A stretch of DNA of 64,000 nucleotides, taken from Natronorubrum halalkaliphilum (GTDB taxonomy: Archaea > Halobacteriota > Halobacteria > Halobacteriales > Natrialbaceae). The notes under the pieces were generated by a model that was not told where the DNA came from, did no database searches, and was given only the letters and a program-made list of their open reading frames with translations. The stretch spans positions 1 through 64,000 of the forward strand of contig NZ_WUYX01000022.1 in NCBI RefSeq assembly GCF_009834785.1, given 5' to 3'. Position numbers and translations under genes: made by a program. Shown one piece after another: positions 21,808 through 64,000 of this stretch (position 1 is its first letter; each line of letters opens with the position of its first letter).

Positions 21808-21818
21808 GTACACTCAGG

Positions 21819-22533: not shown

Positions 22534-22547
22534 CAGCGATCCCCGTG

Positions 22548-22588: not shown

Positions 22589-22769
22589 TTTGGAGTAGGA
22601 ACCGGCTTTCTGTAATATCATTTGAATTCGTCGCAAACCCCTTCTCAGATGACAACTATCGAAACATCGCCAATTGAGTACTCTAGCGACTCCGAGACCG
22701 TGGTCTCGTCGAAACAGATACCAGTCACTACCAGTTCAACGGCTTCTCACTGTGGGTTCGGACCGTGAG

Positions 22770-23414: not shown

Positions 23415-26400
23415 ATGCCAAACACTGACCGACAACAACGACAGCAGATAGACGAAAGAATTGGCCTCAAAAGACAGATTGACCGCTATCTCAGCCACCA
23501 CCCCAACGCTGGCGTGAGCGAGATTCTCGGCAGATTTGAGCTCAATCCTAATGACTGGGGTGATTATGTCAGACAGACTGCTGAGTCTACTACGCCCACG
23601 ATTCCGCCGAACAACAGCGCAACACCAAACAGTACTGATTGCGTCGACGAAGACAATGTGGATCCGTCGACGTTAGCAGAATGTGCTAACGAACTTGCCG
23701 ATAGATGGGAGGACGTTGATTTCACTGAGACGAACAGCGACACCTGGCCGCCTACGCTCCACAAGCGCGAGCAGTGGATGGGGCGCCAGGATAAGCTACC
23801 ATTCGCTCCTTGGGGAGATTACGACCACCCGGAAGCTGACCCTGACGAAGACGCCCGTTGGAAGTGGGGGCTCGAGGAGAACTACGTCGACGGTGAAACG
23901 GTCGCAATCGCCGAGGATGACCCCCGCCTTGACGGGCGCGTGTTCATCCAACTCGAGGACGACCCGTATGCGTTCGTCGACGGCGACGACATTCGTTGTC
24001 CTGAAACGGGCGAGGTGCATCCGGCGTTCGTGGCGATCCTTGAACACCTCGGGGCGACCTACGCCGACGTATCGACCTCTGGATCCGGCGTTCACGCCTA
24101 CTACCGTGGGGAACTGCCTATCGACGGAACGGAGCAAGCAACGTTCGCTCTCGATAGTGACCCGTGGGGCAAGAATGACGATGTACCGACGGTGGAGATC
24201 TACGCCAACAAGCATGTCAACGTCGCGACCGGGGAACACGTTGAGGAGACGCCCCTAGAGGTGGCCAAGTGGGACACCGACGTGCTTCGGACAATTCTCA
24301 AAGTCAATGGGTACGAGGATCAGGAGTCGGTCGAGCACGACACCGACCGAGAACGCCCCGAACTCAAGGGCTATAACCCCGATTCGACTAGTGCCGACGA
24401 AACTACCGCCGACATCCGGGATGTCCTCGCTACGGTCGACAACTTGGAGCCGTCCGATGTTCGTCTACGAACCCGACAAACAGGTGAAGAGTCAACCGGG
24501 TGGAGTACGTGGGATCCCAGCTATCGCGCGTCTGCGAGCGGTGAGAGCCTCCACTACAATGGCGAAGGCGTGTTCCACGACCACAAAGAAAATGAGGCCT
24601 TCGGTGTCCTCGGGCTGATCGCCGTTGAGGAGGACATTATTTCCAACCCATGGGACCGCCTCACCGGCGCTGAGTGGTGGAATGCCGTCGAGGCCGCTCG
24701 CGATCGCGGCGCACCGATTCCAGAACTCGATCGATCGGTGGGGCAGCAAGCAACCGAGCCTACAACTGTCCTCCCCAGTGAGGATATCCTCCCACCCGTG
24801 ACTGCCTGGGACTGGGAGGCTGCAGGCGCTCGAGCGGCTCATGGAGAGCTTCCGGAGCAAGACACACTCGACGTCGATGATGTCCGAGAGCGCACTGTCG
24901 AGACGATTGCAGACGGTTACAAACGAGGCGACCGCCGGCTCGTTGAGGTCCTCCCGACCGGTGGGAAGTCCTTCGGCTCGATCGAGGCCGCCGCACGAAC
25001 TAGTGAGCCGATCACTTATCTGACCGGCCGAGGGCGAAAAGAACAGTACGACCAAATCGCCGAGTGGTGCCGAGAACACGGTCTTACCTACAAGATCCTT
25101 CCAGCGTTCACCCGCGACTGTCCGACCGCTAGCGGCGAACACGGCGAGGATTGGAAGGAAACTGTCCTCGACTGGTACAACCGCGGTGCAACTCCCCAAG
25201 ACATCCACAAATACGCCGAGGACATCCTCGATCGACCGCTCCCGTGCCAAGTTGGCCATGATGAGAACCACGTTGACTGCCCCTATGCTCGCAAGTGGGA
25301 CTTTGACCCCGAGACAGACGGGAGCGCGGACCCAGATGAAGATCTACAGATTAACGTCCTCATCGGCCACTACACACACGCCCATCGCGAAGACAAGGTC
25401 GTCCACGGCCGGACCGTGGTATTCGACGAGTTCCCCGGCGGAGCCTACGAACGGACCCTTGACCATGGCATCGAAGGCGCCGTCACCTACTACCTGCAGA
25501 GTCACGACGCGATCCCGTTTGACGACTACACCGAGTTGCTCGAGGGGCGCGACGACGACGCCCGACGAGCCAACGCACTCACCGAACTTCTCGATCACAG
25601 AATCGACCCAGACGGGCGAGCAGTCCTTAAGGACGACGCTGCGAACGCCGCTGCTCCGCTAGCTGCGTTCACCTTGTTGGCTGCCGCGGAGAACAATCTT
25701 GGGAACGGGCTTGAGCGCGCCGAGTTCGCTGCCGACGGCCACGACAACGACGATTCACGTGTCGGCCTTCACGACCGCGAAGAGGGTACCGTCCGCGTCC
25801 TTGCTCCACCAGACCTCTCCTACGCCCGCGGCGTGGTCGCGCTCGACGGGACGCCGACTAAATCAATGTGGGAGCTGGTGCTCGGCGAGCGACTTAACCA
25901 CCGCCAGATTCTGACCGACGACGAGCGGCGGGACTACCTCCGGGACGCCCTAGACCTCAATCTGGTGCGAACGTCGGAGTACGTCAAGCCGTACAACTCG
26001 GCGGACCACGTCGCCGTCAACGACGACGCTGCCCTCTTAGAGGCAATCACCGAGCGCCACGACGAGGATCCCAGCGTGATTACATCGATGACCGCTCTTC
26101 AGGAGTACAAGTGCGAGGGGGTGCTCTCCTACAATGACAACACCGGTGAAGTGCTCGAGGGCCCTGCCGACCAGGTGAGGTGGTACGGCAACGTCCTCGG
26201 CAGCAACGAGTTCAAGCACAAGCGTGTCGGGGCGGTTATCGGATCGACCCATTACGGGGACCGGTTCATCCAGAAGTGGGGTGCCTACGCCGGCGAAGCC
26301 GTCGAGCGAAACGACGAGAAGGGGGCTGAGCTCTCCTACGGCGAGTTCGGCGACGACGTCCTCCAGCACATGCGAGAACACACGACGCTACAAAGCGTTA

Positions 26401-26933
26401 TGCGCTTCGGGCGCGACGGGGAGGGGGCGGTCGTCTACGTGCACACCGATACGCTCCCAGAGTGGGTCGAGCCCGTGATTGCTGCTGAGGGGCGCGTTAT
26501 CCGGACCCGGAGCGAGGGTGAACAGCAAGTAATCAAAGCCGCCACCGACCTCCACAGCTGGCAGACCGCCGAAATCGCCGAACACCCAATCGTCAACGTG
26601 GGCAAGCGACAGGTGTTCAACATCCTGAACGACCTCGCCGACCACGGCTACCTGCAGCGAGAAAGCGATGGGCGAGGGTATGTTTGGTACGATGACGGCC
26701 TCCACAGGATCAATGACCACGGCGATGTCGAACTCGAGCCAGTCGAGCTTGACGGAGCTGAGGGGGCAAACGAAGTTGAAGAAATAGCACGTAGAAAAAC
26801 AATCTATACGTGGGATTTCCGCAACTCCCCATGTGAGCTCACTTCCGATCCGGCAGACTCGCTCAACGACATTGATAGGTTGGCATCTGAGCCGGCTACC
26901 GGAGGTGATCGACCGCCTGATTCCATCGACTGA
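23415..26933 (+). CDS. Primase-helicase-like replication protein
   Basis: A 1172-aa multidomain protein. Residues about 120-300 look like an archaeo-eukaryotic primase (prim-pol) core: FIQLEDDP (177-184) supplies a possible metal-binding acidic patch, and YADVSTSGSGVHAY (216-229) matches the s-G-s-G-x-H block. Residues about 505-900 form a helicase-like motor with Walker A LPTGGKS (513-519) and Walker B VVFDEFPG (668-675). Between them lie Cys569, Cys611 and Cys622, reminiscent of the metal-binding insert of XPD-type helicases. LDGTPTKS (about 820) is a likely motif III equivalent. A C-terminal winged helix (about 1040-1110) ends it. Such proteins start replication of haloarchaeal plasmids and proviruses. 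Confidence 0.75.
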   Translation: MPNTDRQQRQQIDERIGLKRQIDRYLSHHPNAGVSEILGRFELNPNDWGDYVRQTAESTTPTIPPNNSATPNSTDCVDEDNVDPSTLAECANELADRWEDVDFTETNSDTWPPTLHKREQWMGRQDKLPFAPWGDYDHPEADPDEDARWKWGLEENYVDGETVAIAEDDPRLDGRVFIQLEDDPYAFVDGDDIRCPETGEVHPAFVAILEHLGATYADVSTSGSGVHAYYRGELPIDGTEQATFALDSDPWGKNDDVPTVEIYANKHVNVATGEHVEETPLEVAKWDTDVLRTILKVNGYEDQESVEHDTDRERPELKGYNPDSTSADETTADIRDVLATVDNLEPSDVRLRTRQTGEESTGWSTWDPSYRASASGESLHYNGEGVFHDHKENEAFGVLGLIAVEEDIISNPWDRLTGAEWWNAVEAARDRGAPIPELDRSVGQQATEPTTVLPSEDILPPVTAWDWEAAGARAAHGELPEQDTLDVDDVRERTVETIADGYKRGDRRLVEVLPTGGKSFGSIEAAARTSEPITYLTGRGRKEQYDQIAEWCREHGLTYKILPAFTRDCPTASGEHGEDWKETVLDWYNRGATPQDIHKYAEDILDRPLPCQVGHDENHVDCPYARKWDFDPETDGSADPDEDLQINVLIGHYTHAHREDKVVHGRTVVFDEFPGGAYERTLDHGIEGAVTYYLQSHDAIPFDDYTELLEGRDDDARRANALTELLDHRIDPDGRAVLKDDAANAAAPLAAFTLLAAAENNLGNGLERAEFAADGHDNDDSRVGLHDREEGTVRVLAPPDLSYARGVVALDGTPTKSMWELVLGERLNHRQILTDDERRDYLRDALDLNLVRTSEYVKPYNSADHVAVNDDAALLEAITERHDEDPSVITSMTALQEYKCEGVLSYNDNTGEVLEGPADQVRWYGNVLGSNEFKHKRVGAVIGSTHYGDRFIQKWGAYAGEAVERNDEKGAELSYGEFGDDVLQHMREHTTLQSVMRFGRDGEGAVVYVHTDTLPEWVEPVIAAEGRVIRTRSEGEQQVIKAATDLHSWQTAEIAEHPIVNVGKRQVFNILNDLADHGYLQRESDGRGYVWYDDGLHRINDHGDVELEPVELDGAEGANEVEEIARRKTIYTWDFRNSPCELTSDPADSLNDIDRLASEPATGGDRPPDSID

Positions 26934-46078: not shown

Positions 46079-46183
46079 ATGCCACTCTTAGAACAATCAT
46101 ACTGGACCGTGACCAGGCTCCTATCCGAATTCTACATCAATCCAATTTCGGATGGTCGAATCTCCCAGAGATCGTTACAATGA
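46079..46183 (+). CDS. Possible 34-aa peptide coupled to the integrase gene
   Basis: An ATG at 46079 opens a short frame (MPLLEQSYWTVTRLLSEFYI and a polar end) whose TGA overlaps the integrase ATG (ATGA). The coupling is suggestive; the short length makes it doubtful. The remaining 251 bp back to the kinase gene at 45827 contain no other gene and likely hold divergent promoters. Confidence 0.3.
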   Translation: MPLLEQSYWTVTRLLSEFYINPISDGRISQRSLQ

Positions 46184-47487
46184 GTCGATCAGATGCCGAA
46201 CAGGAGAGCGAGAGCAACGTTGAGCAGGCGCTATCATTCGATGGTGTCCGATGGACCTCGTGTTCGCTCGAGGACTTCGCGGACCTGTACTGGGACGAGA
46301 TCGCACCCTGTCTCGAAACAGAGGGTTTCGATCCAACAAGCGAGAAACCGACCCACCAGTGGTTTCAGAATCACGATGCACGGTCATTCCTTGCAGCTCT
46401 CCGCCGCCATCATGACCGCTCATTCGGGGAGTTCTGGAATAAAGACCTCGGGCTTGGAGACAATAAAGAAGGCTACACATGGGCAACAACGGACGAGGCA
46501 ACAATCGACGCCCTCGAACAGTTCCTCAACCGACGAAAATCACGGTACAGTCTGGCATCGTCGTCCATCGAAGCAATGCGAACGCGGCTGAATCTCTACG
46601 TCCGTGCTTACCAAGAGGCAAATGGAACGGGCGACCTCCTTACACCAATTCTACGAGGTCAAGAGAATCCAGCCTACGAAGCCGTTGATGCGGTCTATGC
46701 AGCGTTCGACTGGTTGAACGAGGGAACCGAGGACAAGTACAGTGCCCAGACTCTCCAGCGTGTGCGGCGCGTCGTCGACGCCTGGTATCAGCATCTGGTC
46801 GGTCGGCGAGTTACCTCGATGAACCCTGCCAGCGGCCTCTACGACGAATTCAAGTGGGAAGTAGAGGAATCCCCGACACCTTCCCTTTCAGCAAACCATA
46901 TTCGGAAGCTAATGCAGACGTCGGAGACAACACAAGAACAGCTGCTCGTAGTAGCACTAGCTGGCTGGGGACTTCGAGCGAGTGAGGTCGCCGCACTCCA
47001 CGTCTCACAGTTCCACCGTGATGTTCCCGGAGACGACATCCCCTTCATCACGTTCGAGAGCCGCAAGAACGGGCCCGGTGAGGTGTCTCTCCTGTACGGA
47101 ATGGACGTGCTCGACTCCCGAATCGACGAGATAGCCGAAGACGATACGTGGACTGGATACTTGTTCCCATCTTCGCAGGGAGAAATGCCGTACGTGACCC
47201 GAGATACAATCCGGAATTGGTTCCAGAATCTTGCATCGGAGGCAGATCTTCCTGGCCGGATCCAGGGCGAACGACCAAGCCCACAGCTCTGCCGGCGATT
47301 CTGGTACGACACCTATACAGTAGCCCTCGAAGGCGTTCTCGAAGGTATCAACGAAATCGCTGCAGAGCAAGGTAGTAGCGATCCTCAGGTAGTGATGCAA
47401 AATTACCTATCTGACTCGCGTTCTCGTCAAGTCCGACGAGAGTTCATGCAGGATCAACTTAACGCAGCCTTTGGAGAGAGAACTTGA
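46180..47487 (+). CDS. Tyrosine-recombinase-like protein of the partition region
   Basis: The 435-aa protein has an N-terminal SAM-like core-binding region (about 100-230) and a C-terminal recombinase fold. Box I is GWGLRASEVAALHV with the catalytic Arg. The C-terminal patch reads SPQLCRRFWYDTY, then SSDPQVVMQNYLSDS: the HxxR and the second His/Trp site are changed (QLCRR, SSDP), while the Tyr nucleophile candidate remains. A divergent integrase of this kind is common immediately upstream of ParA on haloarchaeal plasmids and may resolve plasmid multimers. Iterons follow it. Confidence 0.78.
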   Translation: MSRSDAEQESESNVEQALSFDGVRWTSCSLEDFADLYWDEIAPCLETEGFDPTSEKPTHQWFQNHDARSFLAALRRHHDRSFGEFWNKDLGLGDNKEGYTWATTDEATIDALEQFLNRRKSRYSLASSSIEAMRTRLNLYVRAYQEANGTGDLLTPILRGQENPAYEAVDAVYAAFDWLNEGTEDKYSAQTLQRVRRVVDAWYQHLVGRRVTSMNPASGLYDEFKWEVEESPTPSLSANHIRKLMQTSETTQEQLLVVALAGWGLRASEVAALHVSQFHRDVPGDDIPFITFESRKNGPGEVSLLYGMDVLDSRIDEIAEDDTWTGYLFPSSQGEMPYVTRDTIRNWFQNLASEADLPGRIQGERPSPQLCRRFWYDTYTVALEGVLEGINEIAAEQGSSDPQVVMQNYLSDSRSRQVRREFMQDQLNAAFGERT

Positions 47488-47939: not shown

Positions 47940-48851
47940 ATGACCGAATCACCTCATGGATGGGGCGTCACACCATCAACTGGCATCCCTACGATCGCCT
48001 TCGGCAACCAGAAAGGCGGGACGGGAAAGACAACCGCGACGATCAACAGTGCCGCGGCGCTGGCCACTCGCGACCACGATGTGCTTGCGATCGATATGGA
48101 CCCGCAAGCCGACATGACAAAAGGACTTGGACTGGGTCCGGGCGACGACAATGACCCATCAAGCCCAAAGAACGAACTCCCCAACACACTAGTCACCGAT
48201 GACGAGAATCTGCTTGACGTACTCGTCGACAATCCGCGCACGCACGATACTAGTCTTTCAGAGATCGTGATCGAAGCCGACGAGTACGACCATCTGAACT
48301 TCGACCTGATTCCCAGTCACAAGGACATGGGCCTTGCTCGAGACTGGATGGACGATGCAAATGCCCGTCTCTCGCTGAAACTCGCCCTCGAAGAGATGGT
48401 TGACGATGGATATAACTACGATTTTATCGTAGTCGATTGCCCCCCTGACCTCTCAGTCCTGACGGACGCGGCGTTCATTGCGGCTCAGAACGTCTTCTTG
48501 GCTGCACAGACCCAAGCAACATCACGGGATGCACTTGACGACCTGTGGGACCAGCTGGAGTCCATCGAGGACAACCAGCAGATCGAGATCGCAATCGTCG
48601 GACTCCTGGCGAATATGTACCGGGACGACGGTCAGTCACAGAAATTCCTCAACTCCTTCGACGAGTCCTTCGCGTCGATGGCACCGATTTTCAAACTCCC
48701 GATGCGAGTAGCGATCCAGCGTGCGTGGGACAACGGACGAGATATTTTCGGGTGGGAAGACGCGAACGACCAGCAAGTAGAGCGCGACCTCTTTCTGGAG
48801 GTTGCGGAGACGATGGAACGAGCGTTCGACAAAACGCAGGTGGAGGCGTAA
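47940..48851 (+). CDS. parA: ParA-family partition ATPase
   Basis: A 303-aa ParA/Soj-type P-loop ATPase. Walker A is KGGTGKTT (25-32) with the deviant Lys, Walker A' is IDMDPQAD, and Walker B is VVDCPPD. The N-terminus is short, as in type Ib ParA, with no extra DNA-binding domain. It should move or position plasmid copies along the nucleoid with a centromere-binding partner. The partner candidate begins 2 bp downstream. Iterons immediately upstream suggest autoregulation of the operon. Confidence 0.93.
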   Translation: MTESPHGWGVTPSTGIPTIAFGNQKGGTGKTTATINSAAALATRDHDVLAIDMDPQADMTKGLGLGPGDDNDPSSPKNELPNTLVTDDENLLDVLVDNPRTHDTSLSEIVIEADEYDHLNFDLIPSHKDMGLARDWMDDANARLSLKLALEEMVDDGYNYDFIVVDCPPDLSVLTDAAFIAAQNVFLAAQTQATSRDALDDLWDQLESIEDNQQIEIAIVGLLANMYRDDGQSQKFLNSFDESFASMAPIFKLPMRVAIQRAWDNGRDIFGWEDANDQQVERDLFLEVAETMERAFDKTQVEA

Positions 48852-48853
48852 GA

Positions 48854-49306
48854 ATGCCCCGGGGAATGGACGAGCGATTTGAGGATCCGTCTGAGGAAGC
48901 AGACGACGAGAAAGCCGCGACCGATGACGAGACGATGGAGACGACGTCGGAAGCAGAGAGTCAAGACCACGAACCTGCGGCTGCTACTGAGGAACAATCA
49001 GGGCAGCAGGGGGCTACTGGCACAGCGGATACTGAATCCTCAAATGAGAAGGCAGAGGAAACAGACGATGAGCCGTTGAACATCCGGGAGGACTGGGACT
49101 CGGCCACGATATACGTTGAACCGGACCAGAGCGAGGATATTGAGGTTACATTCACGCGGCTGAAAAAACAGTTGAAGCGGGAGGACATCACGCTCGAGAA
49201 GAACAAGCACTTCTATCGTGGGATTTTCGAAGTGGCATTCGGCGAGCACCGCGAAGAGACGAAGGAAAAGATTCGCGAACTGGCAAAGGAAGACGGTGAT
49301 CAATGA
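48854..49306 (+). CDS. ParA partner, candidate centromere-binding protein
   Basis: A 150-aa acidic protein starting 2 bp after the parA stop. The first 80 residues are a disordered Glu/Asp/Thr/Ser stretch; the C-terminal 60 (EVTFTRLKKQLKREDITLEKNKHF, read in two segments, then EVAFGEHREETKEKIREL) form a short strand and two basic helices, suggestive of a ribbon-helix-helix-like or other small DNA-binding domain. Position and iterons on both sides support a ParB-like adaptor role, though it is not a ParB of the Spo0J family. Confidence 0.75.
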   Translation: MPRGMDERFEDPSEEADDEKAATDDETMETTSEAESQDHEPAAATEEQSGQQGATGTADTESSNEKAEETDDEPLNIREDWDSATIYVEPDQSEDIEVTFTRLKKQLKREDITLEKNKHFYRGIFEVAFGEHREETKEKIRELAKEDGDQ

Positions 49307-49337: not shown

Positions 49338-49490
49338 TCAACGCTGTGACTCCTGAACTACGGGAGTGAAAGTTACTGTCTGGTTCAGCACCTCCTCAGT
49401 TGGCGTTCGTCCGTTGAGAGCTTGATTCCGTTGTTCGTGGTTGTAGTGATGTCTGAACCACGTAGCCACCGTCTCACGCTGGATAGATAT
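49338..49490 (-). pseudogene. C-terminal fragment of an integrase-core transposase
   Basis: On the minus strand, a frame ending at 49338 reads IQRETVATWFRHHYNHEQ, then RNQALNGRTPTEEV. This matches the end of rve/IS481- or IS3-like transposases, where a YN-x-x-R-x-x-x-AL-x-G-x-T-P block ends the integrase core. Only about 50 codons remain and no terminal repeat is visible, so it is a relic. Confidence 0.65.
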
Positions 49491-49522: not shown

Positions 49523-49651
49523 TATGACGACCGAGGCGAGAAGGACATCTACTGTGACCTCCTCGAAGAGCAGAGCCCCTCATTTAATGATTTGAATAAG
49601 CATGGAGCCGGCCTCGTACAACAAGACGTATCGATCCTACCTTTTATTTAA
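49523..49651 (+). other. Orphan coding-like fragment before the giant gene
   Basis: A 42-codon frame without a start codon reads YDDRGEKDIYCDLLEEQ and then loses character, and stops at the base before the ATG of the giant gene. It could be the tail of another gene brought in by rearrangement. The origin is unknown. Confidence 0.25.
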
Positions 49652-52600
49652 ATGGAGAAAGACCGCACAGGCTACAGGTTTAGAGTTTCAGTGAGTGGCT
49701 CAGGGTCCCCAAAGCAGACGGTCGCAGAATCATGTCGTACTGAACACCAAGATCTCCTCGGTGCGTTAACGAACGAAAGCCGGTGGAGCAAGGAGACGGA
49801 CCTTGGCGTCGGCAATCAAGTCGTCGCCTCCACGCACGAGAGTCGGACAGTTTTGGAACTCATCCAGAATGCGCGGGACGCGATTCGCGACGGACCCGGC
49901 GATGACGGACGAATGGCTGTTATCGTCGGCCCAGAATCCTTACTCATCGCGAACACTGGTCGACCGTTTGAACTCCACGATGATGATGTGTTCGAGGCGG
50001 TCACCGGACTCGGCCGATCGGAAAAACTCGACAACAGCGACTCGATCGGTGAGAAAGGGGTTGGCCTCAAATCGTTACTCCAACTGAGCGAGCGGTTTTC
50101 CGTCCATTCGGTCGTCAATGACGATCAGCTCTCGGCACAGTTCTCTCGCTATCACGCGGGCCAGATGCTGTTAGCAGGGTACGACCACTACCTCAAGACG
50201 GAGCTCAGAAATGAGCTCGATGTCGAGAGTTCCGTCATTGAGTCATATCAATCCATTCTCGACGATATCCTAGATGCAGAGGCACGGTCGAGACTCCCAT
50301 CAACGCCGGATATCGACACCATCGCTGAGCGGGAGTCGACCGAGGAGCAGGCGCCGCCGACGCCAAGCGAGTTCCTCACCGATTTGCCCCGACTCTCTTT
50401 GTTCCGGTACCCCTTCCTCACTAATACCGACCACGAGGAGTCGGATGCAACAAGCCGGCTCGTTGACGCCCTCCTCGAGACTGGTCAATCCGCTTCGTCA
50501 ACCGCGACGCCGGACAATAAATGGCTCGAGGACCATGCCGACACCTACCAGACGGTCGTCCGGCTCGATTATGATGACCCGGAATGGACCGGGTTGCTCG
50601 ATTCTGTTCAAAACGCACTCGCCGAAAGTGGTCGCGATATCGTCGACGCCTTCGAGACCAACCGGCGAAGCGCAAACGTTGGCGGACTGTCCAGCGACAA
50701 GACACCCCAAGCGCAATTCTGGGATGAGTGTACCGACCTCTCTGCGTCAACGCTGGTCCTCCTTGAGGAACTCGACGAAATCGACTTCCTCAAACTCGAG
50801 GGCAATGATACCGAGGAAACCGGTTTCCTTGAGATTGGCGACCGCCGGGAGGTGACTATCGAGACCGACAGTGCCCACCAGTCGTCCATCGGTGACGACC
50901 CCGGACTCTCCCGAATTCCGCATGCAGTCACGGAAGAAACGACCACTACTGTCGGCACGACCACCCACGAGCGAGAGTTCCTTCGATACTCACAGACACT
51001 GACCCCAGACGTCCATGAGTGGTTGACGGATGAGGACCGCGACATCGACGCCGAATCGGCAACGATGGATATCCTGCTGGAACAGCCGCGTCCCGAGGCA
51101 GCCGATTGGGAACCAACGCCAGAACCTCTCCACCTTTACTACCCGATTTCGGATGCTTCGACGCCGTTCCCGTTCGTAATTCATGCTCCCTTCGAAGTGA
51201 GTTTCGATCGCCAACATCTCGTGACTGCCGAGAAAAACCAGACGCTCCTCAAGGAGCTCCCGACGCTCATCGCGACCGTAAGCGAAGATCTCATCCAAAG
51301 CGACGAGGCAACTCACGCTCCACCGTCAGGATATCAATCGTGGATGCCGTGGGTTGTTGCTCCCGTCGACGTCGCCGAGACTGACGCCGAGACATCGCTC
51401 GCAAATGGAATCGCTGACACCCTCAGTCGGCTTCAAGACACCGCGATCGTCCCGACTGATTCCCAGGAACCGTTGCAACCGACGGCGACATTGCTCGACC
51501 CGACGCGGTTGGAAGCCTTCGAGGCGTTGCGTGGGCGGGATGCCGCGCCGCCGATTCCTGCTGCAGAGGTCATCGCGAATGGGGAAGCGTGGAAAGCCAA
51601 CCTCCCTGAATCGGCACCGAGTGACCAATCCCGGTTCAACGGGTTCCTTTCCCAAATCGGGTTGACCACGCTTATCGAGACGATTGCAGCAGATGCATCG
51701 GAAGATGACCTTGTGACGGTCCTCTGTGACTTCTGGGAGCAAGCCGGTACAACCACACCGGATGATGGGTTCGATGCGTGGCATGTGACTGTCGAGCATC
51801 CAGCCCATGCAGAGCTGTACTTCGAGGCCATAGCGGAGGCCCTAGCCGATCACGGCGCAGATGCGGATGGCGACGATGAAAACGACGCAGAAGTCGATGC
51901 AGCAACCCGACTCGGTAGACATGGTGTCCCCCTATTGCCGGCAGAGAAACACAAGGAGGGCACATCGACTGCTGAGGCGGAGGAGACAACCGTAACCCGG
52001 TTAGTTCGCGCGAGGCCCAGCGAGGGGCAATCCGATGATGGATCCCGCCAACGGAGTGAACGCATCGTCTTCCGCCGCCAGGAACCCGGTGAGTCACAAC
52101 AATCCATGGCGGAACTCCCCACTCCACCGCAACAATTGCCGGTCTATATCATTCCGTATCAAAACGAGTGGGTCGGCCCGCTCAAGCGGCATAACCGACG
52201 CTGGGGGACCCGAGAGCTGGAAGGGCAAGCGGCCTTCTATCGCCGTGTCGGCGCCGAAGCGGGTGGGTTCTCGGGCGACGAAAATGGCGACCCAGACGTC
52301 GTCGGCTACCTTGCCGATCTATACAAGCAATCGACAGCCGGGCAAACTGCCGAGTGGGTGACCCCCCAGCCGTTCCACAACAAGCAGTTCGACGACGTCG
52401 AGGAAGTCTTCGCGTATGATACACTCACCGGTACCCCAACGGACTACGACGCGTTTCTCGAGCGACGATACGTGCAGACGACCCCGCTTCCGACCGACGA
52501 CGGCAACCAACTCCCAGCCGAGCGACTGGTGTTCGGCCCCGAATGGGCGGAGCGATTCAGCGACGTTTCGGATTCGCTCGCAAGTGAAAATGGCGTCGAG

Positions 52601-55600
52601 TATCCATTTGGCGGGACTGATGATAGTGAGGCCGAGCCGGGCGCGAAGTTCCGACGCTGGGCCGCAGCAATCGAGTGCCGCCAGGACTTCGAACCCACGG
52701 ACACCCCAACCCTCGCGCCGCCCAGTGACGAGCAGTGGGAAGCCATCCATGCACAGATGGACCTCTCGGGCGCGGAACGCAAGCGGTGGGAACTCTACTT
52801 CTTGTTGCATCTGGGCGTGCAGGTCGGCCCCCACATCGATTGGGGATGGCTCTTCCCTGGCCGTGGCACCGACGACCGTCGCACGGGCGCGTTATCACTC
52901 TCGGAAGTGCAGTCCCTCACAGATGCCGATCCCGAGTTCGAAGCCAATCCACCGATTTCCCCATCCGAAGACCTACTGGAGCGGTACCAAACAATTAGTT
53001 GGCGCTCAGAACACCATCCAGCGTTCAGTGCCGGCCACTCGAGCAGCTGTCAAGAAGATTGGTTAGACTGCGATATTGAGGAGTGGGAGTACAACAAGGA
53101 TCTGGCGATCCCAACGTGGTGGCATCTCACGGAACTCGATCCAGACGCTGACCGGGGTCATCGGGAGGCAGTTCGGGATGCGACGGCGCTCATCTGGCCA
53201 GAACTCACGTCGACCATCACAGACACTGCGTGGTACTGTGACGGTACGCATTACAGCCACCAACCGAATACACACGACGCCACGATTCCGGCGCTCGGGG
53301 TCGTCCAACTACAGGATGCGGCACTCTGGCCGGTCACGGAACCAGATACAGATGACGATCCTGCGGAACCGCCCGGTGGGTTGAGGCCAGAGGACCTCCA
53401 CACAGCAAGGCCACTAATCACCGCCGACGAGCAACGCGGTGCGGCCAGCTATCTGCCACGACTCAACCTCGACGAAATTATCGCAAGCATCGAGTCGCGG
53501 TTCGATGCGGATGGAGAACTGCCGGGCGTCGAAATCGCATCGCTGCCGACAAAGCTTGGCGCACGGCCGCTGGATGAACTCACCCCAGCCCAAGCGGCCG
53601 ATCGACTCAACGAGTTCTTATCCAGCCGTGCGGTTGCCGATACACACCGCACATACGACCATCAAGCGCTTTCGGCGATGGAATCCACATGGGATTCCCA
53701 GTCGAATACAGTGCCCACCTATGGATTGCTACGGCGGCTCACGGCGACCTCGCAGGTCAGTCGAAAACTCACTGATGAGGAACCCAAGCGCCAGTGGCTT
53801 CGGCGGGATATCTGGCATACTGGCGTTCGACTCCCAGTCCGATGGGCCGACAACTCGCTTATCCTCCACGTTGAGGAGGACATCCCACAGGTCGAGGAGC
53901 CTGAGCTACGAGTCTACACGCAGCAAATCCCGCAGCACGCACGCGAACAGTTCGCCAGTGACGATTCCATCGCGATCGTCGAACGGCCCAGTCGAGAGGC
54001 ACGAGCCATTGCATACCTGTTTGGCGGTGCCCCCGACGGCCCGACACCGCCATTTGGAATTCAAACAAAGACAGAACAGCCGGATCTCGGAGTTTCCGAG
54101 GACGAGTTTGAACCAACACCCCAAGAACAAGAAGCGATTAAGGACCTCAAATCGACACTGGAGCCCCGGATAATCTATCTGCTAGCCGCATACGATGCAA
54201 ATGTATCTGAGGCAAACCATCGGGCGGTCTACAACCAGCTCAATGCGGTCGTCGACAATCCAATCGGGATCATCGAGAGCACCGACGGCACGAGTTCAAG
54301 GCGGTCGACGCAGTGGTCACCGCCAACCACTGATGAGGAAAAGCCAAATCAGATCGCCATCTATCGGAGCGCAATCGACGAGCACAGTGACGATTCGACG
54401 CTGATCCCGCTATACCTCGCAGCAGATGGCCTTGCCCAAGTCATCGACCAATATTCGCTTAGGGATGTCTTCGAGAACATACTCATCAAGCCGGATGACG
54501 CGCTCGATTACGATTACGCCGAACAGAAAGAGAATGTCCGCGCAGAACTCTCTGAGCTTCGAGAACAGCGATTCGAGCTGGTTCAAGCGGCACTGAGAAC
54601 ACTACTTTCGAACATCGACGAGACGGCAAGCCCACCGGAGTTCCATATCAATCCGGACGACGACGTCGAATCGACACTGGAGAAAATGGCGAACGCACCG
54701 AACGGGACTGAGGACACGGTCGTCAATGCATGGGTGGAGGCATTCACGACTGCGGGGCTTGCCGAGCCGGCCACCCGGCAATGTATTGCGGCCGCAGCGA
54801 TGGAGGAGAACTACGCACGACTCCAACATGTTTCTACAGCACTCCAGAACGCCTCAGAGCTTCACCGCGAGGACTTGAGAGACCACCAAGTTTGGGATGA
54901 ACTCGACTCCTGGCCGACCGACAGCGACGTCGAGTCCCTCCGAAAGTACCTCACCGCTGTCGCCAAAATTGACGCCTTCTGGGCGACGTACACCGATAGC
55001 GAATCGGATTCAAAAACCGCTATCGCCCTCGCCGTCGATGCAGCTGCCAACCCAACAGCGCCACCGGAGCCACTGACACCAGTCATAGAGGGCATTCCCG
55101 ACGGCGACCGCGTGGCGACAGCGCTCAGGGACCGCTTGCTGATCGAACTCCCAAAACAGAGTGACGGGCCCGTTCTCGAGTCCATCATAACGACCGTCGC
55201 CGAGTGGCACGCAACCCGCCACAAAACGTTCGCCGCCTCACTCAGTGAGGACGATGACACCAATAAGCTCCTCAGGGCGTTCACGACGGCACTCGAGAAC
55301 CCCACCGAGTCGCTCGCGACTGTTACTGACGCACTGAACGGGTATCGTGAGGACACTGGTGGCGGCGGTGGACCTACGAGCCACGCCAAGCGACGGGAGC
55401 TCACAATGCAGTGGGTGTCAGCGTCGGATACCGAGCTGGATGATGCGGTTAACTCATCTCTCACACTGGAAGATGCACCTGACGATGGGGGCGCTCCCAG
55501 TATTGGATCAAGTTCATCTAGCACCCCGACATCAAACGCAGAGATTGCTGACGACCGAGGGCGTGAAGCCGAACTGCTGTGTCTGGCGCGTACGTGGAAC

Positions 55601-56245
55601 CAGTTCCGGACACAAGACCAATCGACACGAGAGCGAATCCTCGAGGAACTCACTCGATGGCGGAGCGCCGATATCTGGCGGATGAAAGCGGTTGAAGCCA
55701 TCGCCGATATCGATACAAATGAGCCAGCAATCGAGGGCGAACGCCCGGAAGTGGTCCTTCGGCAGGCAACAATCCCCGATGAATCAGCGTATCGGACTGC
55801 ATTCCGCCTGTTGTTCGACGTTTCTGACGAGCGTGGGCCCGGATTCGATTATATCGACCCCTTCGCCGGCATGGACGAAGAAGCGAACTCGGGCTGGGGT
55901 CCGGAACATATGAGACGGGTCGAAGTCAAGGCCGTTACACCGGACCGAGCGACCAATGGCCGCATCAAATTGACCGGAAACGAGTTCCGGATGGCCCGCC
56001 GGCGAGGTCCCGATCCATTGCCGGGTGAGTTACCGAAGAAAATCCGGGAATCAACAGACCGCTACCTGCTCCGCTTAGTGAGTCTCCCGCGTGCGTGGCG
56101 CAGTGAGGATGACCGTGGGAACGGCATCACGGTTAGAGACATTCAGGACTTCGTTGACTACGGGAAGTTTGAAGAGGATGATGAACCCCTCTGGGAGAAG
56201 CTGCGGGGTGGGGAGTTCTACGTGAGCTTTGGGTCTGGCAACTGA
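49652..56245 (+). CDS. Giant sacsin-like HATPase and DUF3883 protein
   Basis: A 2197-aa soluble protein. Residues about 45-230 form a GHKL/HATPase domain of the sacsin type: ELIQNARDA (69-77) is the N-box, IANTGRPF (99-106) and IGEKGVGLKS (132-141) are the nucleotide lid motifs. About 1800 residues of unassigned acidic sequence follow. The last about 150 residues contain the DUF3883/NOV domain: GPGFDY, RRVEVKA, LTGNEFRMA and YLLRLV, with the E-V-K core resembling a PD-(D/E)XK nuclease. This domain order recurs in large proteins of defence islands. The gene starts right after the transposase relic; the first 20 or so residues may not be native. Cellular function is inferred, not known. Confidence 0.82.
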   Translation: MEKDRTGYRFRVSVSGSGSPKQTVAESCRTEHQDLLGALTNESRWSKETDLGVGNQVVASTHESRTVLELIQNARDAIRDGPGDDGRMAVIVGPESLLIANTGRPFELHDDDVFEAVTGLGRSEKLDNSDSIGEKGVGLKSLLQLSERFSVHSVVNDDQLSAQFSRYHAGQMLLAGYDHYLKTELRNELDVESSVIESYQSILDDILDAEARSRLPSTPDIDTIAERESTEEQAPPTPSEFLTDLPRLSLFRYPFLTNTDHEESDATSRLVDALLETGQSASSTATPDNKWLEDHADTYQTVVRLDYDDPEWTGLLDSVQNALAESGRDIVDAFETNRRSANVGGLSSDKTPQAQFWDECTDLSASTLVLLEELDEIDFLKLEGNDTEETGFLEIGDRREVTIETDSAHQSSIGDDPGLSRIPHAVTEETTTTVGTTTHEREFLRYSQTLTPDVHEWLTDEDRDIDAESATMDILLEQPRPEAADWEPTPEPLHLYYPISDASTPFPFVIHAPFEVSFDRQHLVTAEKNQTLLKELPTLIATVSEDLIQSDEATHAPPSGYQSWMPWVVAPVDVAETDAETSLANGIADTLSRLQDTAIVPTDSQEPLQPTATLLDPTRLEAFEALRGRDAAPPIPAAEVIANGEAWKANLPESAPSDQSRFNGFLSQIGLTTLIETIAADASEDDLVTVLCDFWEQAGTTTPDDGFDAWHVTVEHPAHAELYFEAIAEALADHGADADGDDENDAEVDAATRLGRHGVPLLPAEKHKEGTSTAEAEETTVTRLVRARPSEGQSDDGSRQRSERIVFRRQEPGESQQSMAELPTPPQQLPVYIIPYQNEWVGPLKRHNRRWGTRELEGQAAFYRRVGAEAGGFSGDENGDPDVVGYLADLYKQSTAGQTAEWVTPQPFHNKQFDDVEEVFAYDTLTGTPTDYDAFLERRYVQTTPLPTDDGNQLPAERLVFGPEWAERFSDVSDSLASENGVEYPFGGTDDSEAEPGAKFRRWAAAIECRQDFEPTDTPTLAPPSDEQWEAIHAQMDLSGAERKRWELYFLLHLGVQVGPHIDWGWLFPGRGTDDRRTGALSLSEVQSLTDADPEFEANPPISPSEDLLERYQTISWRSEHHPAFSAGHSSSCQEDWLDCDIEEWEYNKDLAIPTWWHLTELDPDADRGHREAVRDATALIWPELTSTITDTAWYCDGTHYSHQPNTHDATIPALGVVQLQDAALWPVTEPDTDDDPAEPPGGLRPEDLHTARPLITADEQRGAASYLPRLNLDEIIASIESRFDADGELPGVEIASLPTKLGARPLDELTPAQAADRLNEFLSSRAVADTHRTYDHQALSAMESTWDSQSNTVPTYGLLRRLTATSQVSRKLTDEEPKRQWLRRDIWHTGVRLPVRWADNSLILHVEEDIPQVEEPELRVYTQQIPQHAREQFASDDSIAIVERPSREARAIAYLFGGAPDGPTPPFGIQTKTEQPDLGVSEDEFEPTPQEQEAIKDLKSTLEPRIIYLLAAYDANVSEANHRAVYNQLNAVVDNPIGIIESTDGTSSRRSTQWSPPTTDEEKPNQIAIYRSAIDEHSDDSTLIPLYLAADGLAQVIDQYSLRDVFENILIKPDDALDYDYAEQKENVRAELSELREQRFELVQAALRTLLSNIDETASPPEFHINPDDDVESTLEKMANAPNGTEDTVVNAWVEAFTTAGLAEPATRQCIAAAAMEENYARLQHVSTALQNASELHREDLRDHQVWDELDSWPTDSDVESLRKYLTAVAKIDAFWATYTDSESDSKTAIALAVDAAANPTAPPEPLTPVIEGIPDGDRVATALRDRLLIELPKQSDGPVLESIITTVAEWHATRHKTFAASLSEDDDTNKLLRAFTTALENPTESLATVTDALNGYREDTGGGGGPTSHAKRRELTMQWVSASDTELDDAVNSSLTLEDAPDDGGAPSIGSSSSSTPTSNAEIADDRGREAELLCLARTWNQFRTQDQSTRERILEELTRWRSADIWRMKAVEAIADIDTNEPAIEGERPEVVLRQATIPDESAYRTAFRLLFDVSDERGPGFDYIDPFAGMDEEANSGWGPEHMRRVEVKAVTPDRATNGRIKLTGNEFRMARRRGPDPLPGELPKKIRESTDRYLLRLVSLPRAWRSEDDRGNGITVRDIQDFVDYGKFEEDDEPLWEKLRGGEFYVSFGSGN

Positions 56246-56511
56246 CATGCTCCTCGACACATTCGGCGACTCATCTGCAATCCAACCCCTCCCCCACTAC
56301 ACGTCTAGCGCTATCGATAGAGTTCCTTTCTCAGCCTCCATTTACTCAGATCAGAGGCATCGAAGCCCGGCAGCGCTCAACCCTTCCGTTCATCGAGGAC
56401 GTCTAGCGCGACTGTCTCGAACGACTCGACACGACTCGATCTCCGGGCGCTGTACTTGACTGTCTACGGGACGCCATCAAGTGCCCCCTACGCTGGAACG
56501 GTTAGCACCTC

Positions 56512-56771
56512 GTGGAACGGAATCGCGTCTCCAAGCTGCTGGAGGGGTACACGCAGAACACCCAGAATGTGGCGGCCCTGAAACGGGCTCGCGACCAGAA
56601 TCTCACCGTCCATCCTGGACAGGATATCGAGTACGCCATCGTCGACGAGAAATCCTCACGGGACCACGTCGCCCTCGCCCCGTAGAGATCGACACCTACG
56701 ACGCATTGTACTACGAGACGCAGCTGGTCCGAGCTGCCGAGATCCTACTGTCTCCCTTTGACTGGAATTAG
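56512..56771 (+). pseudogene. 3' fragment of a family B DNA polymerase gene, frameshifted
   Basis: The frame from 56512 reads RVSKLLEGYTQNTQNVAALKR and GQDIEYAIVDEKSSRDHVAL, stops at 56685, and continues in another frame as IDTYDALYYETQLVRAAEIL, ending LSPFDWN at 56771. The two pieces join into the C-terminal thumb region of haloarchaeal/archaeoviral PolB. The upstream bulk of the polymerase is absent. It is a degraded remnant. The other parts of 56246-57738 hold no supported gene apart from origin repeats. Confidence 0.7.
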
Positions 56772-56835: not shown

Positions 56836-57703
56836 CCCCCTCCCCCCTTTTTCGAGTTGTAAACTCGTGACGACGGGGAGGGGGTGAACAGAAAGAGGGG
56901 GCTGCAAAACAGCCGATTGTGGCAGATACACACGATAGAAGATCTGAACATCCATTTCTCTAAGATGCAACTAAAAATGCGAAAGTTTATGCTGCCCGCT
57001 ATCTAACCATATCCGTAATGGGGACAGAAGAAATAAATCTTCTAGGCCAGTTAGAAGATTAGAATCTCTGGGTATAGAAAATCTCCTCATCTCGTACATG
57101 GTCCCAATCTCGAGAACTAACAGGTTTCATCGCCTCTACGTCCTATTTTGTGAACTTCATTCTCACTCCATGGGGTCTGAAGTGGTCTGCACCCGGCGAC
57201 TTACAACTCGAAAAAGGGGGGAGGGGGAGGGTAGAAGGTTCGAGTACACCACACGAACTTCACCACCCATCATGTTTGTTAACCGGCATTTCTCTCATTT
57301 GTGAACTACTCCTACGAGCGTTACCCTTTCGCGACAATTCTGGTGCTTACTACTCGAAAACGGGGGGTGTGGGATACACCGTTTCACCCTAAGCATCATT
57401 CGAAAAATTCAGCCGATATAGATCTGCTTCTATACTCAGTGCGACTCACTGTTACTTACAACTCGAAAATGGGGCGGGTGGGAGAATCGAACCAGGTGTG
57501 GTGACGCTCCTCGAAGTCTTACAACTCGAAAACGGGGGGTCTGGGTCATCGAGGGAGTTCGACGATAGAAATTCCTGGCGATCCCTTACAACTCGACAAC
57601 GGAGGGTGTTAGATGCCGAAGACGGTATCTAGCTGGTTTCGGGAATACACGGCTGTAGTTGTTAGATAGCCTGTTTTCACCCGGTTACAACTCCACAAGG
57701 GTC
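56836..57703. repeat. Origin recognition repeats left of orc1/cdc6
   Basis: Copies of TTACAACTCGAAAACGGGG followed by more G lie at 57201-57227, 57347-57374, 57456-57482, 57519-57545 and 57586-57612, all in the + direction, plus a weak one at 57685-57703. One copy in the opposite orientation sits at 56836-56862, directly followed by a partial forward copy, so that the pair forms an inverted repeat. The body plus G-string resembles the ORB elements that Orc1/Cdc6 binds at haloarchaeal plasmid origins. Confidence 0.85.
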
Positions 57704-57707
57704 CACA

Positions 57708-57715
57708 TTTTTATA
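57708..57715 (+). promoter_or_regulatory. TATA box of the orc1/cdc6 gene
   Basis: TTTTTATA centred about 27 bp before the ATG at 57739 fits a near-leaderless transcript. GAGGTGG at about 57726 is a possible Shine-Dalgarno site. The adjacent degenerate origin repeat could let Orc1/Cdc6 repress its own gene. Confidence 0.5.
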
Positions 57716-57738
57716 CCCAGAGTTCGAGGTGGTTCATA

Positions 57739-59223
57739 ATGGGACGAAAGGGACGTAGAGCAGGTTCGAATCATCCAGAAGGTGAAAAGGATCGCAAATC
57801 CTCCTCTGCTGCTCCTGATAATCCCGAGTCGATGGGTGAGGAGATAGATACGTCACAGTCGACGTTTGAGGATGGCTCGGAACTCGCCGATTCTTCTCAA
57901 GAGGCAACAAACGGTGGTGGCATCTCAATCCGGGATCGGCTACAAACTGAGTCGTCTGGGGGGGTCTTCGCGAACAAAGACCTCGTTCGGTCAGATACCA
58001 TCATCGACGAGGATCGTATCGTCGGTCGTGATGAGCAACTGGGCCGTGTCGTCGACAATCTGAAACCCGTGCTCCAGAACGAAGGCATCCCAGATATGCT
58101 TCTGAGTGGTCCCTCTGGAACTGGGAAGTCGCTCATCATTCATGCAGTCTGCAAACAGATTGTCGAACTGTGTGAATCTCAAGGCAAGACCTTCGGGGTC
58201 ATTTCAATCAACTGCGAGGGGCCGAAGACAGCAGATCGAGCTGTCTATCGGTTAGTTAAAGCTGCTGCCGACGACCTCGGCGTTGATCCTGGTGTTCCCC
58301 AAACCGGGGTCTCAACGGATCAGAAGTTGGAGCGACTGTACGAACTAATGCGCGAGTATTACGACGGTGTCATCTTCATTCTCGATGAAATCGATATGCT
58401 CGAGGGACCGTATCAGGAAGCGGAGTACAATTCTCTCATCTATCAGCTTTCACGGGCTCGAAAACTCGCCGATTTTGATGGGCCGATCTCACTCACGACT
58501 ATCACGAATTACGCCGATTTCATGAAGGACCTCAACAGCCGCGCACAGAGTTCTTACAACCCTGATGACATCTTCTTCGACGATTACGATGCGAACCAAC
58601 TCCGTGGTATTCTCCATAACCGACGAGACGCCTTCAAGCCAAACTCACTCACAGATGACGTCGTTCCGCTTGTTGCCGCATTCGGATCCCAAACGCATGG
58701 GGATGCACGGAAAGCAATTGATCTCCTCAGATGGGCTGGCGAATTAGCCGAGCGGCGTGGAGCTGACACTGTTACCGAGACTGATGTCCGTGAAGCCCAG
58801 GAGAAATACACCGAAAATCGCAAACTACGCCATATTAGCGGGATATCCACTCAAAAGAAACTCTCCATCTACGCTGTGGCGGCCACTGCCCACTACGCAA
58901 GAGAACACCCTGAGTGGATACCTGCTGGACCTGCGTTCAAGACGTACCAATTCATTGCTGATACGATGGATTCGGATCAGTACAGTCGCGAGACGTTCGT
59001 AAATCACGTCACAGAGCAGAGTACGTACGGAGTATTGGACTCCGAGCGTCGAGGCAAGGGGCGAGGCAGAGGAGTGCATATGTATTTCTCCCTCTCCGAG
59101 GATCCGGAAACGATCATGGAGACGATTCGTGAGGATTCCCGGTTTGAAGATCTAGCTCACGAAGAGGCGACTATCAGCGCAGTTGTCCGAGAACGGCTGA
59201 AGCAGTTCCGCAGCAAGAACTAA
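57739..59223 (+). CDS. cdc6: Orc1/Cdc6 replication initiator
   Basis: A 494-aa AAA+ initiator. After a low-complexity acidic N-terminus of about 75 residues, the AAA+ domain has Walker A GPSGTGKS (124-131), Walker B ILDEID (214-219) and sensor motifs TITNYADF and GDARKAIDLL. The C-terminal about 120 residues are a winged helix with KLSIYAVAATA and YSRETFVNHV. It binds the flanking G-tailed repeats to open the origin and load MCM. The gene is flanked by repeats on both sides, which makes 56.8-59.5 kb the replication origin of this replicon. Confidence 0.95.
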   Translation: MGRKGRRAGSNHPEGEKDRKSSSAAPDNPESMGEEIDTSQSTFEDGSELADSSQEATNGGGISIRDRLQTESSGGVFANKDLVRSDTIIDEDRIVGRDEQLGRVVDNLKPVLQNEGIPDMLLSGPSGTGKSLIIHAVCKQIVELCESQGKTFGVISINCEGPKTADRAVYRLVKAAADDLGVDPGVPQTGVSTDQKLERLYELMREYYDGVIFILDEIDMLEGPYQEAEYNSLIYQLSRARKLADFDGPISLTTITNYADFMKDLNSRAQSSYNPDDIFFDDYDANQLRGILHNRRDAFKPNSLTDDVVPLVAAFGSQTHGDARKAIDLLRWAGELAERRGADTVTETDVREAQEKYTENRKLRHISGISTQKKLSIYAVAATAHYAREHPEWIPAGPAFKTYQFIADTMDSDQYSRETFVNHVTEQSTYGVLDSERRGKGRGRGVHMYFSLSEDPETIMETIREDSRFEDLAHEEATISAVVRERLKQFRSKN

Positions 59224-59246
59224 TCTCGACCTTATTCTCTCCACAC

Positions 59247-59440
59247 TTACTACTCGAAAACGGGGAGTGTTAGAGCTCCGGGGGTGGGTAACAACTCGAA
59301 AATGGGGAGTATCTTTCGCCGGAATCCTTCGTTACTACTCGAAAACGGGGAGTGTTAGAGCTCCGGGGTGGGTAACAACTCGAAAATGGGGGTATCTTTC
59401 GCCGGAATCCTTCGTTACTACTCGAAAACGGGGGGTGTGA
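59247..59440. repeat. Origin repeats right of orc1/cdc6, in an 84-bp tandem array
   Basis: Repeat copies start at 59247, 59289, 59332, 59373 and 59415, alternating TTACTACTCGAAAACGGGG and TAACAACTCGAAAATGGGG. They are carried on a direct tandem duplication of about 84 bp (59247-59331 and 59332-59414, nearly identical, with a third partial unit). The orientation is the same as in most of the left array. No CRISPR: the spacing is short and the spacer is itself repeated. Confidence 0.85.
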
Positions 59441-59517
59441 CCTCCGATTTTCTTGCTGTCACTTCCAACGATGAGAATGTTGTAGAGAAACGACGAGAAT
59501 GGTCTCCTGAATCGAGT

Positions 59518-61986: not shown

Positions 61987-64000
61987 TCAGTGCGTAACTA
62001 TGTTCGTTCCTGGTGACGAGACCAGCTTGCCGTGATCTTGGATATACGAATACAGGTCGAGATACACGTCTGCACAGCTTTCAGCTGGATCCTGTCCTTT
62101 CCTCGGTGTGGTCAACGTCTTCCAATTCCCGATAAGTACACACCGCTTCTTTGCCCGGGTAAGCGCTACGTTGAGCCGGCGCGGTCCCTCGTTTTTGAAC
62201 TCTAAGAACCCGGCATCCATATCCGAGTTACTGCGAACGAACGAAACGATGATCGCTTCTTTCTCGCTGCCCTGAAATGAGTCGACTGTACTCACCTTCA
62301 CCCCGTAGATCTCGTGTCGCTGTAGTTCTGTCTTGATGGACGTGACCTGCCCGTTGTACATCGCGATGATCCCGATATCATCAGCATCGACACCGTTGTT
62401 CAACAGGCGTTTCGCCTGTCCAACAGCGGCCTGGGCCTCTTCGTGGTTTTTCTTGCTTGTTCCATGATCATCTTCTTCACTGCGGATATCGATTCCGACC
62501 ATCGGCGGCATTCCGTTGACTGTCCATCTCGCGTTTTGGTCAGCATCTTCCAGCTTGCCGTCGTAGAACGCCTGATTCGAGAAGCTGGCGATCGTCCCGT
62601 TCATGCGGTACTGGCGGCGCAACGTGGCGGAGATGTTCTCGTCGTATAGGTCCAGTAGCCGCTCAAACAGCGGGCGGTGCATGTTCTCTCGCCGCATATC
62701 CTCGTCTGAGCAGTGCGGTGGCAGCTGCTTGTGATCCCCTGCGAGAATCAACTGCTCTGAGCGATAGAACGGGATGAGTGTCGACGGGGTATCTGCCTGA
62801 GTAGCCTCGTCGATCACACACAGGTCGAACTCGTTCTTGCTGAAGTTGGCAGCCCGGTTGGTGGTCGCTCCGACGATGTCGGCGTGGCGCTTGCTTCGGC
62901 CCATGAACCGTGAACGAACCCTTTCATCGGTGATGCGGTGTCCGTCTCGAGCAATTCGGAGTTCACCGTCTAGATCAGCCTGATACAGTTGATCTGTAGC
63001 TAACAGGTTGTCTACCGCCTGGTTCGAGTGGGCACAGGCCAGCACCCGTTTCCCGTCTTTTACTGCTTCGCGGATGATGGTGGCCAGTGTCCGTGTTTTC
63101 CCGGTTCCTGGTGGGCCGTGGATGCAGAATACGTCTTTCGATCGAAGAGCCGCTTCTGCTGCCTGTTGCTGGTAATTATTGAGTTGATCTCGGTCGAAGT
63201 CGACAGTAAGCGCTGAATCGAAGTTCAGCAGTGCTCTCCCGCCGATGATTTCTCGTTTCTGTTTGTCTCGCCAGACCTCGTCGATGGCCTCCCGTTTCCG
63301 TTCGTTCGCGAGTGGGTCATGAAGTTCGACGATCGAAACCTCAACCCCTTCTTTGAGGTGAAGAGCAGCGAACTCGGGAGCATCAGAGGTCTCCCAGTCG
63401 GGCTTGATCCGAAACCCGTCCTCAAAGACGTCGGCGATCCTGGCGTCGAATGGGAGTCCATCTTCTTCGCAATCTTTCCCGACAACCACCTCAACGTTGT
63501 ATCGGAGGTCGGAATCGCTTCTCAAATCAAGGTCTTTGTTCCCTTTCGCTTCCGATTCGATTCGAAGGGTCATTTTATCGCGTTCTGCAGATACTGCGCC
63601 ACGGGCAGTGAGTGCAGATACGGCGACACGTTGCCGTTCCAACCGATCGATCGATGTATCGTGTATCTCCTTACGTCGTTCTTCCCGTTCGCTGTCATCG
63701 TTGGTTTCGACGAGTTCCACGAGGTCATCGTAGAGTTGATCCATCTCGTCTTCACTGGCTGGATTGTCCGCAGCGATCTCGGTTCTAGAGCCATCGAGAC
63801 CACCCTCTTCTGAATCGACGTCGGTCAGGAACGAGGGCGTTTCAGGCGGAGTGTAATCTGGGTGCCAGAACCGAATTCGGTACCCGATGTACACTCGACC
63901 GAGCGTGTTTGTCTGGACTGGGGTAAGCTTCTCGCGGGCGACGTCGAAGTAGAAGATCGTTGGCCGGTCGTAGTGCTTGCGGAGAATAACGTATTCGCCG
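61987..64000 (-). CDS. Superfamily 1 helicase (DNA2/NAM7-like), incomplete at the window end
   Basis: The minus-strand frame is open from 61987 to the window edge. The GTG at 63894 is only an internal candidate; codons upstream (GEYVILRKHYDRP and KLTPVQTNTLGR) continue in frame, so the 5' end lies beyond 64000. Walker A is IHGPPGTGKT, Walker B is VIDEATQAD, and later motifs are LAGDHKQLPP, RRQYRMN, VDSFQGSEKEAI and ALTRAKK, an AAA_11/AAA_12 type superfamily 1 motor. An N-terminal domain of at least 250 residues precedes the motor. Stand-alone helicases of this kind often belong to defence or repair loci. Confidence 0.92.
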   Translation of the reverse strand, partial: GEYVILRKHYDRPTIFYFDVAREKLTPVQTNTLGRVYIGYRIRFWHPDYTPPETPSFLTDVDSEEGGLDGSRTEIAADNPASEDEMDQLYDDLVELVETNDDSEREERRKEIHDTSIDRLERQRVAVSALTARGAVSAERDKMTLRIESEAKGNKDLDLRSDSDLRYNVEVVVGKDCEEDGLPFDARIADVFEDGFRIKPDWETSDAPEFAALHLKEGVEVSIVELHDPLANERKREAIDEVWRDKQKREIIGGRALLNFDSALTVDFDRDQLNNYQQQAAEAALRSKDVFCIHGPPGTGKTRTLATIIREAVKDGKRVLACAHSNQAVDNLLATDQLYQADLDGELRIARDGHRITDERVRSRFMGRSKRHADIVGATTNRAANFSKNEFDLCVIDEATQADTPSTLIPFYRSEQLILAGDHKQLPPHCSDEDMRRENMHRPLFERLLDLYDENISATLRRQYRMNGTIASFSNQAFYDGKLEDADQNARWTVNGMPPMVGIDIRSEEDDHGTSKKNHEEAQAAVGQAKRLLNNGVDADDIGIIAMYNGQVTSIKTELQRHEIYGVKVSTVDSFQGSEKEAIIVSFVRSNSDMDAGFLEFKNEGPRRLNVALTRAKKRCVLIGNWKTLTTPRKGQDPAESCADVYLDLYSYIQDHGKLVSSPGTNIVTH

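Follow-up and report, generated by a model that had tools for sequence, protein, structure and literature searches.

The 64,000-base window analysed here comes from a 70,109-base contig (C34) of Natronorubrum halalkaliphilum and carries a very large gene, 49652..56245, which encodes a 2197-aa homologue of TmtA, the protein of the Tiamat defence system. This gene and the features described below lie on the plus strand unless stated otherwise. Upstream, an integrase-like protein of 435 aa (46180..47487; weak Phage_integrase match, E = 0.079), whose gene recurs upstream of the same ParA module elsewhere, is followed by a plasmid partition module (47940..49306) that consists of ParA (47940-48851; Pfam AAA_31, E = 3e-35) and a small partner (approximately 48860-49306) and is present in many haloarchaeal plasmids. 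Between this module and the TmtA gene lies a transposase relic on the minus strand (approximate limits 49370..49480; translation ETVATWFRHHYNHEQRNQALNGRTPTEEVLNQTV), which sits in an insertion of about 157 bases that is absent from orthologous plasmids. Downstream, a remnant of the C-terminus of a family B DNA polymerase (about 56481..56771) reads IDTYDALYYETQLVRAAEILLSPFDWN and resembles the C-terminus of a 730-aa PolB-like open reading frame in L093. An Orc1/Cdc6 replication initiator follows at 57739..59223 (Cdc6_lid, E = 3e-25), flanked by 11 ORB-like origin repeats (TTAC[TA]ACTCGAAAACGGGG; 57201..59451), of which six precede orc1 and five follow it; a search with the ORB pattern gave 7 matches where 0.04 were expected.

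A preliminary description of this DNA had placed the gene alone between a transposase relic and a degraded polymerase gene, next to an origin. Both flanks are indeed visible in translation, the polymerase relic at about 56640-56771, and the 11 repeats around orc1 locate the origin. That the gene stands alone holds only in part: it lies in a plasmid partition and replication cassette whose layout recurs in other haloarchaea. The genes adjoining it serve replication and partition, not defence. Elsewhere on this contig, at 6751-17560, there is a complete HmaABC system.

The reading frame proved to be real: it is free of stop codons and has orthologues with 93% protein identity on other replicons, namely plasmids of Halosegnis rubeus and Halobaculum halobium and a 132,812-base contig of G221. 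A plasmid of Halorientalis marina and the genome G052 carry more distant orthologues, with 37-40% identity. The true start may lie 12-23 codons 3' of the listed ATG, as several homologues begin opposite residues ~13-24. Compared with the close orthologues, the gene has a dN of 0.032-0.035 and a dS of 0.14-0.16, and the resulting dN/dS of 0.21-0.23 means that it is maintained; purifying selection acts on it. In 200-codon windows we found no hot spot of positive selection, and no stretch along the gene has decayed.

Conserved domains of the TmtA homologue

The N-terminus contains a GHKL ATP-binding core of the Hsp90/sacsin type (49844..50107, residues 65-152), which matches NCBIfam P_loop_sacsin with E = 6e-18, above the curated cut-off. 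The conserved ATPase motifs are present: an N-box E69xxQN73, N101-x-G103 and G133xKGxG138. When a profile of 13 relatives was searched against the PDB, the solved structures that it matched included Hsp90/HtpG, with E = 1e-4, as well as sacsin, with E = 0.034. The sacsin-type ATPase named in the preliminary description is confirmed by the NCBIfam match. A sacsin-like architecture of internal repeats was considered and rejected, since comparison of the N-terminal profile with the rest of the protein by hhalign found no repeat of the ATPase module.

At the C-terminus, residues ~1960-2150 (55529..56101) form a predicted nuclease-type domain of the DUF3883/NOV_C kind with an intact PD-(D/E)XK signature: E1974, then G-F-D2066, then E2091-V-K2093. 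The preliminary description had named a C-terminal DUF3883 with an E-V-K core. This assignment holds by homology, though a direct Pfam DUF3883/NOV_C match to the 2197-aa protein itself was not obtained. It rests on two observations: an alignment of 17 C-termini, reaching down to 15% identity, shows no variation at the E, D and E-x-K positions, and Pfam NOV_C (PF13020, which is DUF3883) matches the same C-terminal place in relatives, above the cut-off in four shorter TmtAs and with E = 0.013 in the G052 orthologue, which is 39% identical. DUF3883 has been described as a domain of the restriction endonuclease type (PMC3710099, PMC10609329).

Between the two ends, residues ~153-1959 (50108..55528) form a middle region in which no recognized domain or internal repeat was found and which is a candidate sensor or clamp. 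As the preliminary description had it, these roughly 1800 residues carry no assigned function: Pfam, NCBIfam and PDB searches returned no family and no solved relative for them. PDB searches with profiles of the C-terminus and of the whole protein gave chance matches only. Structure prediction yielded no usable model for the C-terminal 269 aa alone (pLDDT 34) or for the N-terminal 640 aa when three sequences were supplied (pLDDT 29).

A large haloarchaeal form of TmtA

The best PADLOC match of the protein is TmtA, profile PDLC03971, with E = 8.8e-152 over residues 17-1745 and E = 2e-28 for the C-terminal part, and TmtA profiles match all 16 of the 16 aligned relatives. By these whole-length profile matches the protein is a homologue of TmtA, the single protein of Tiamat. 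It had been proposed that the gene could be a single-gene defence system and that it be compared with known single-protein defence ATPases; that comparison leads directly to Tiamat, which is listed as a defence system (PMC12926258, PMC13321033) and has been reported in Halococcus (PMC13321033). The defence idea holds, but the kind already has a name. The mechanism of Tiamat is recorded as unknown (PMC12926258), and our literature search found no account of it; no solved structure of Tiamat came to light.

The protein shares with other TmtAs (PDLC03964, PDLC03971 and related profiles) its single-gene organization, the N-terminal GHKL ATPase and the C-terminal DUF3883 signature, which is common to it and the shorter TmtAs. 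It differs in three respects: its length of about 2200 aa as against about 1450-1700 aa, the embedding of its gene in a plasmid ParA-Orc1 cassette, and an H-C...W-x-C...H motif that none of the 11 shorter TmtAs in the comparison possesses. A maximum-likelihood tree built on the ATPase region (35 rows) places the haloarchaeal proteins of 1979-2232 aa in one clade (23 rows, support 100/99) apart from the proteins of 1446-1686 aa, with the caution that long branches meet at the joins between these groups. The motif follows this division. In the 2197-aa protein it reads H1129-x3-C1133 and W1194-x-C1196-x6-H1203 (53036..53260), and the general form H-x(3,4)-C ... W-x-C-x(2-8)-H is present in 19 of the 20 large-clade members tested, the exception (L067) missing the last H, and in none of the 11 shorter TmtAs. 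The 2197 residues include only 9 cysteines, two of them within the motif, which makes a metal site a reasonable inference; judging from the alignment, the motif is likely to be a metal site of the large haloarchaeal clade. This large, Cys/His-bearing form of TmtA appears to be undescribed in the literature that we searched.

Plasmid context, neighbours and mobility

TmtA occurs patchily, in 17 of 149 relatives. No neighbour family is constant across the TmtA loci; the commonest are Orc1 (12) and ParA (11) among about 40. Defence genes lie near several relatives: the Halobaculum copy has a BREX system about 10 kb away, SNF2, DUF1156 methylase and DUF499 genes together with UvrD and PD-(D/E)XK genes are found around those of N. 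bangense and H. lacisalsi, and three shorter TmtAs have restriction endonuclease genes in their vicinity. The survey of spread and neighbours therefore placed the relatives on plasmids and among defence genes rather than mainly in housekeeping neighbourhoods, and library and PDB searches gave the middle region no unrelated role. A UvrD and PD-(D/E)XK pair was considered as an obligatory partner of TmtA and rejected, as it recurs yet is absent at most loci. Two relatives are split by insertion sequences, IS66 and IS1595. No viral contig was matched with the 2197-aa protein as query; a profile search of the same contigs returned one distant TmtA relative (L107), and a search of phage records with L107 gave no match.

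We read 51 copies of the ParA module in haloarchaeal genomes. Eight of these have a TmtA no more than 1 kb from ParA (N. halalkaliphilum, Halosegnis, Halobaculum, G221, G185, G209, G040 and G028), and in two more the distance is about 6 kb. Chance adjacency over the 51 modules, calculated from about 53 TmtA matches over 292 genomes with a size of about 3.6 Mb, would be about 0.01-0.02, a rough order-of-magnitude estimate. In the tree the eight adjoining TmtAs fall on four distinct branches, and both orientations occur among them; the partition slot has therefore captured TmtA repeatedly, from at least four TmtA lineages. In the remaining module copies the slot or its surroundings contain varied other genes, which makes an insertion hotspot the plain reading. 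Repeated capture of TmtA at a plasmid partition slot appears not to have been described in the literature searched.

Comparison of the N. halalkaliphilum and Halobaculum plasmids bears on how the gene travels. The TmtA DNA is 94% identical (49604 to 56348) whereas the ParA module is 84% identical, and dS is 0.16 for TmtA against 1.25 for ParA; the rise in identity, up to 93%, is already seen inside the partner gene from about 49100. Since TmtA is more alike than the module beside it, the TmtA block has passed from one plasmid backbone to another, in part independently. The distribution of related copies indicates that TmtA genes move horizontally between plasmids, across families.

Discussion

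ATP-driven closure of the N-terminal domains is typical of Hsp90/MutL-type proteins. We consider it probable that the gene encodes a haloarchaeal, plasmid-carried version of Tiamat in which an ATP-switched sensor or clamp would license a DNA nuclease that acts on incoming DNA; trigger and nuclease step are the inferred parts. ATP binding would close the N-terminal domains, with dimerization as in other GHKL proteins of this type; this would turn the long middle, with a possible part for the Cys/His site, into a sensor or clamp on a sign of invasion, for which DNA of a virus or plasmid and proteins made by a virus are candidates; and closure would then license the C-terminal nuclease to cut DNA, so that the invader is destroyed or the cell stopped. 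A bolder version, which we put forward only tentatively, would have a distinct haloarchaeal Tiamat with an added metal-binding sensor, whose capture at the partition slot reflects functional coupling to replication and partition, so that plasmids exclude rival plasmids as well as viruses.

The recurrent position beside ParA could also mean that the protein is a device of plasmid against plasmid, tied to the partition and origin module, which attacks incoming plasmids or aids retention of its own rather than providing general defence against viruses. The eight adjacencies within 1 kb, from four branches and in both orientations, fit this idea, as do Orc1 and the origin repeats on the other side of the N. 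halalkaliphilum gene, but most module copies are without TmtA, the slot genes vary as expected of an insertion hotspot, and many large-clade TmtAs are chromosomal; we regard exclusion of plasmids as its main role as unlikely. It is still less probable that the effector targets RNA or shuts the cell down in an abortive infection, leaving invader DNA alone. Such an effector would be compatible with the listing of the Tiamat mechanism as unknown (PMC12926258) and with a DUF3883 substrate that is a predicted one here, yet the signature is that of a DNA-nuclease superfamily and DUF3883 is placed with restriction endonucleases (PMC3710099, PMC10609329).

A sacsin-like chaperone or a housekeeping protein of protein quality control is suggested by the kinship of the N-terminal domain to sacsin and Hsp90. 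This reading was already disfavoured, and the patchy occurrence, the plasmid location, the nuclease signature and the single ATPase module in place of sacsin repeats make it very improbable. Hardly any weight can be given to the gene being a decaying plasmid passenger with no present function: relics of a transposase and a polymerase do flank it, and insertion sequences have split two relatives, but all 2197 codons are open, dN/dS is low, no stretch has decayed and the motifs are intact.

For the preferred reading, an ATPase-gated nuclease, the invariant catalytic positions and the Cys/His site peculiar to the large clade offer targets for point mutation. With distantly related TmtAs captured repeatedly next to one plasmid partition module, haloarchaea lend themselves to tests of plasmid-coded defence.

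Sacsin, a giant chaperone-like protein of animals, has a related GHKL ATP-binding domain, but the 2197-aa protein has one ATPase module and no repeats, and its C-terminus is of the NOV_C/nuclease type, with no match to a HEPN or J domain in Pfam. The SNF2 helicase-DUF3883 proteins of restriction-type operons have the same REase-like C-terminal domain (PMC3710099); the 2197-aa protein differs in having a GHKL ATPase in place of the SNF2 motor, and no methylase partner gene adjoins the N. halalkaliphilum copy.

NO VEIN, a nuclear protein of plants that acts in development, has an HATPase-like N-terminus and a NOV_C C-terminus, its two end domains following each other as in TmtA. If the link is true, the TmtA family would connect prokaryotic immunity with a protein of plant development. 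Homology of this kind would fit the observation that every 'Tiamat' match in plant metagenomes fell on a plant sequence (PMC12409356).

Defence-related and other genes in the window

The minus strand carries a complete Hma-type defence system at 6751-17560, consisting of genes for HmaA, an SNF2/PLD helicase (6751-10701, PADLOC E = 7e-62), HmaB, a DUF1156 methylase (10719-13613, PADLOC E = 1e-54) and HmaC, a DUF499 ATPase (14261-17560, PADLOC E = 1e-82). Two Mrr-like restriction endonuclease N-termini are encoded on the same strand, the first at 56-628 (Pfam Mrr_cat E = 1e-6) and the second at 5556-6707, and both match an Aga REase profile weakly. An SF1 AAA_11/AAA_12 helicase encoded at 61987-63894 (minus strand) has Mokosh MkoA as its nearest PADLOC profile (E = 9.5e-77), a match that may be due to the helicase core common to the whole family. 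The 1172-aa protein encoded at 23415-26933 on the plus strand had no matches in Pfam (E <= 0.001) or PADLOC.

Additional and interrupted TmtA genes

The genome to which the window belongs encodes a second TmtA, the single protein of the Tiamat system, on contig C4 (locus L088, 8915-13975, minus strand); at 1686 aa it is of the shorter type, which lies apart from the large haloarchaeal clade. The Halobaculum orthologue (locus L023, NZ_CP126160.1) has its CDS annotated at 20256-26582, while the conserved ORF spans 19995-26582; because the annotated start is 87 codons downstream of the conserved one, the annotated protein is without the ATPase N-box. The TmtA copies on Halobiforma lacisalsi pHLAJ5I (L084) and on a Halobaculum magnesiiphilum plasmid (L108) are split, interrupted by IS66 and IS1595 transposase genes.
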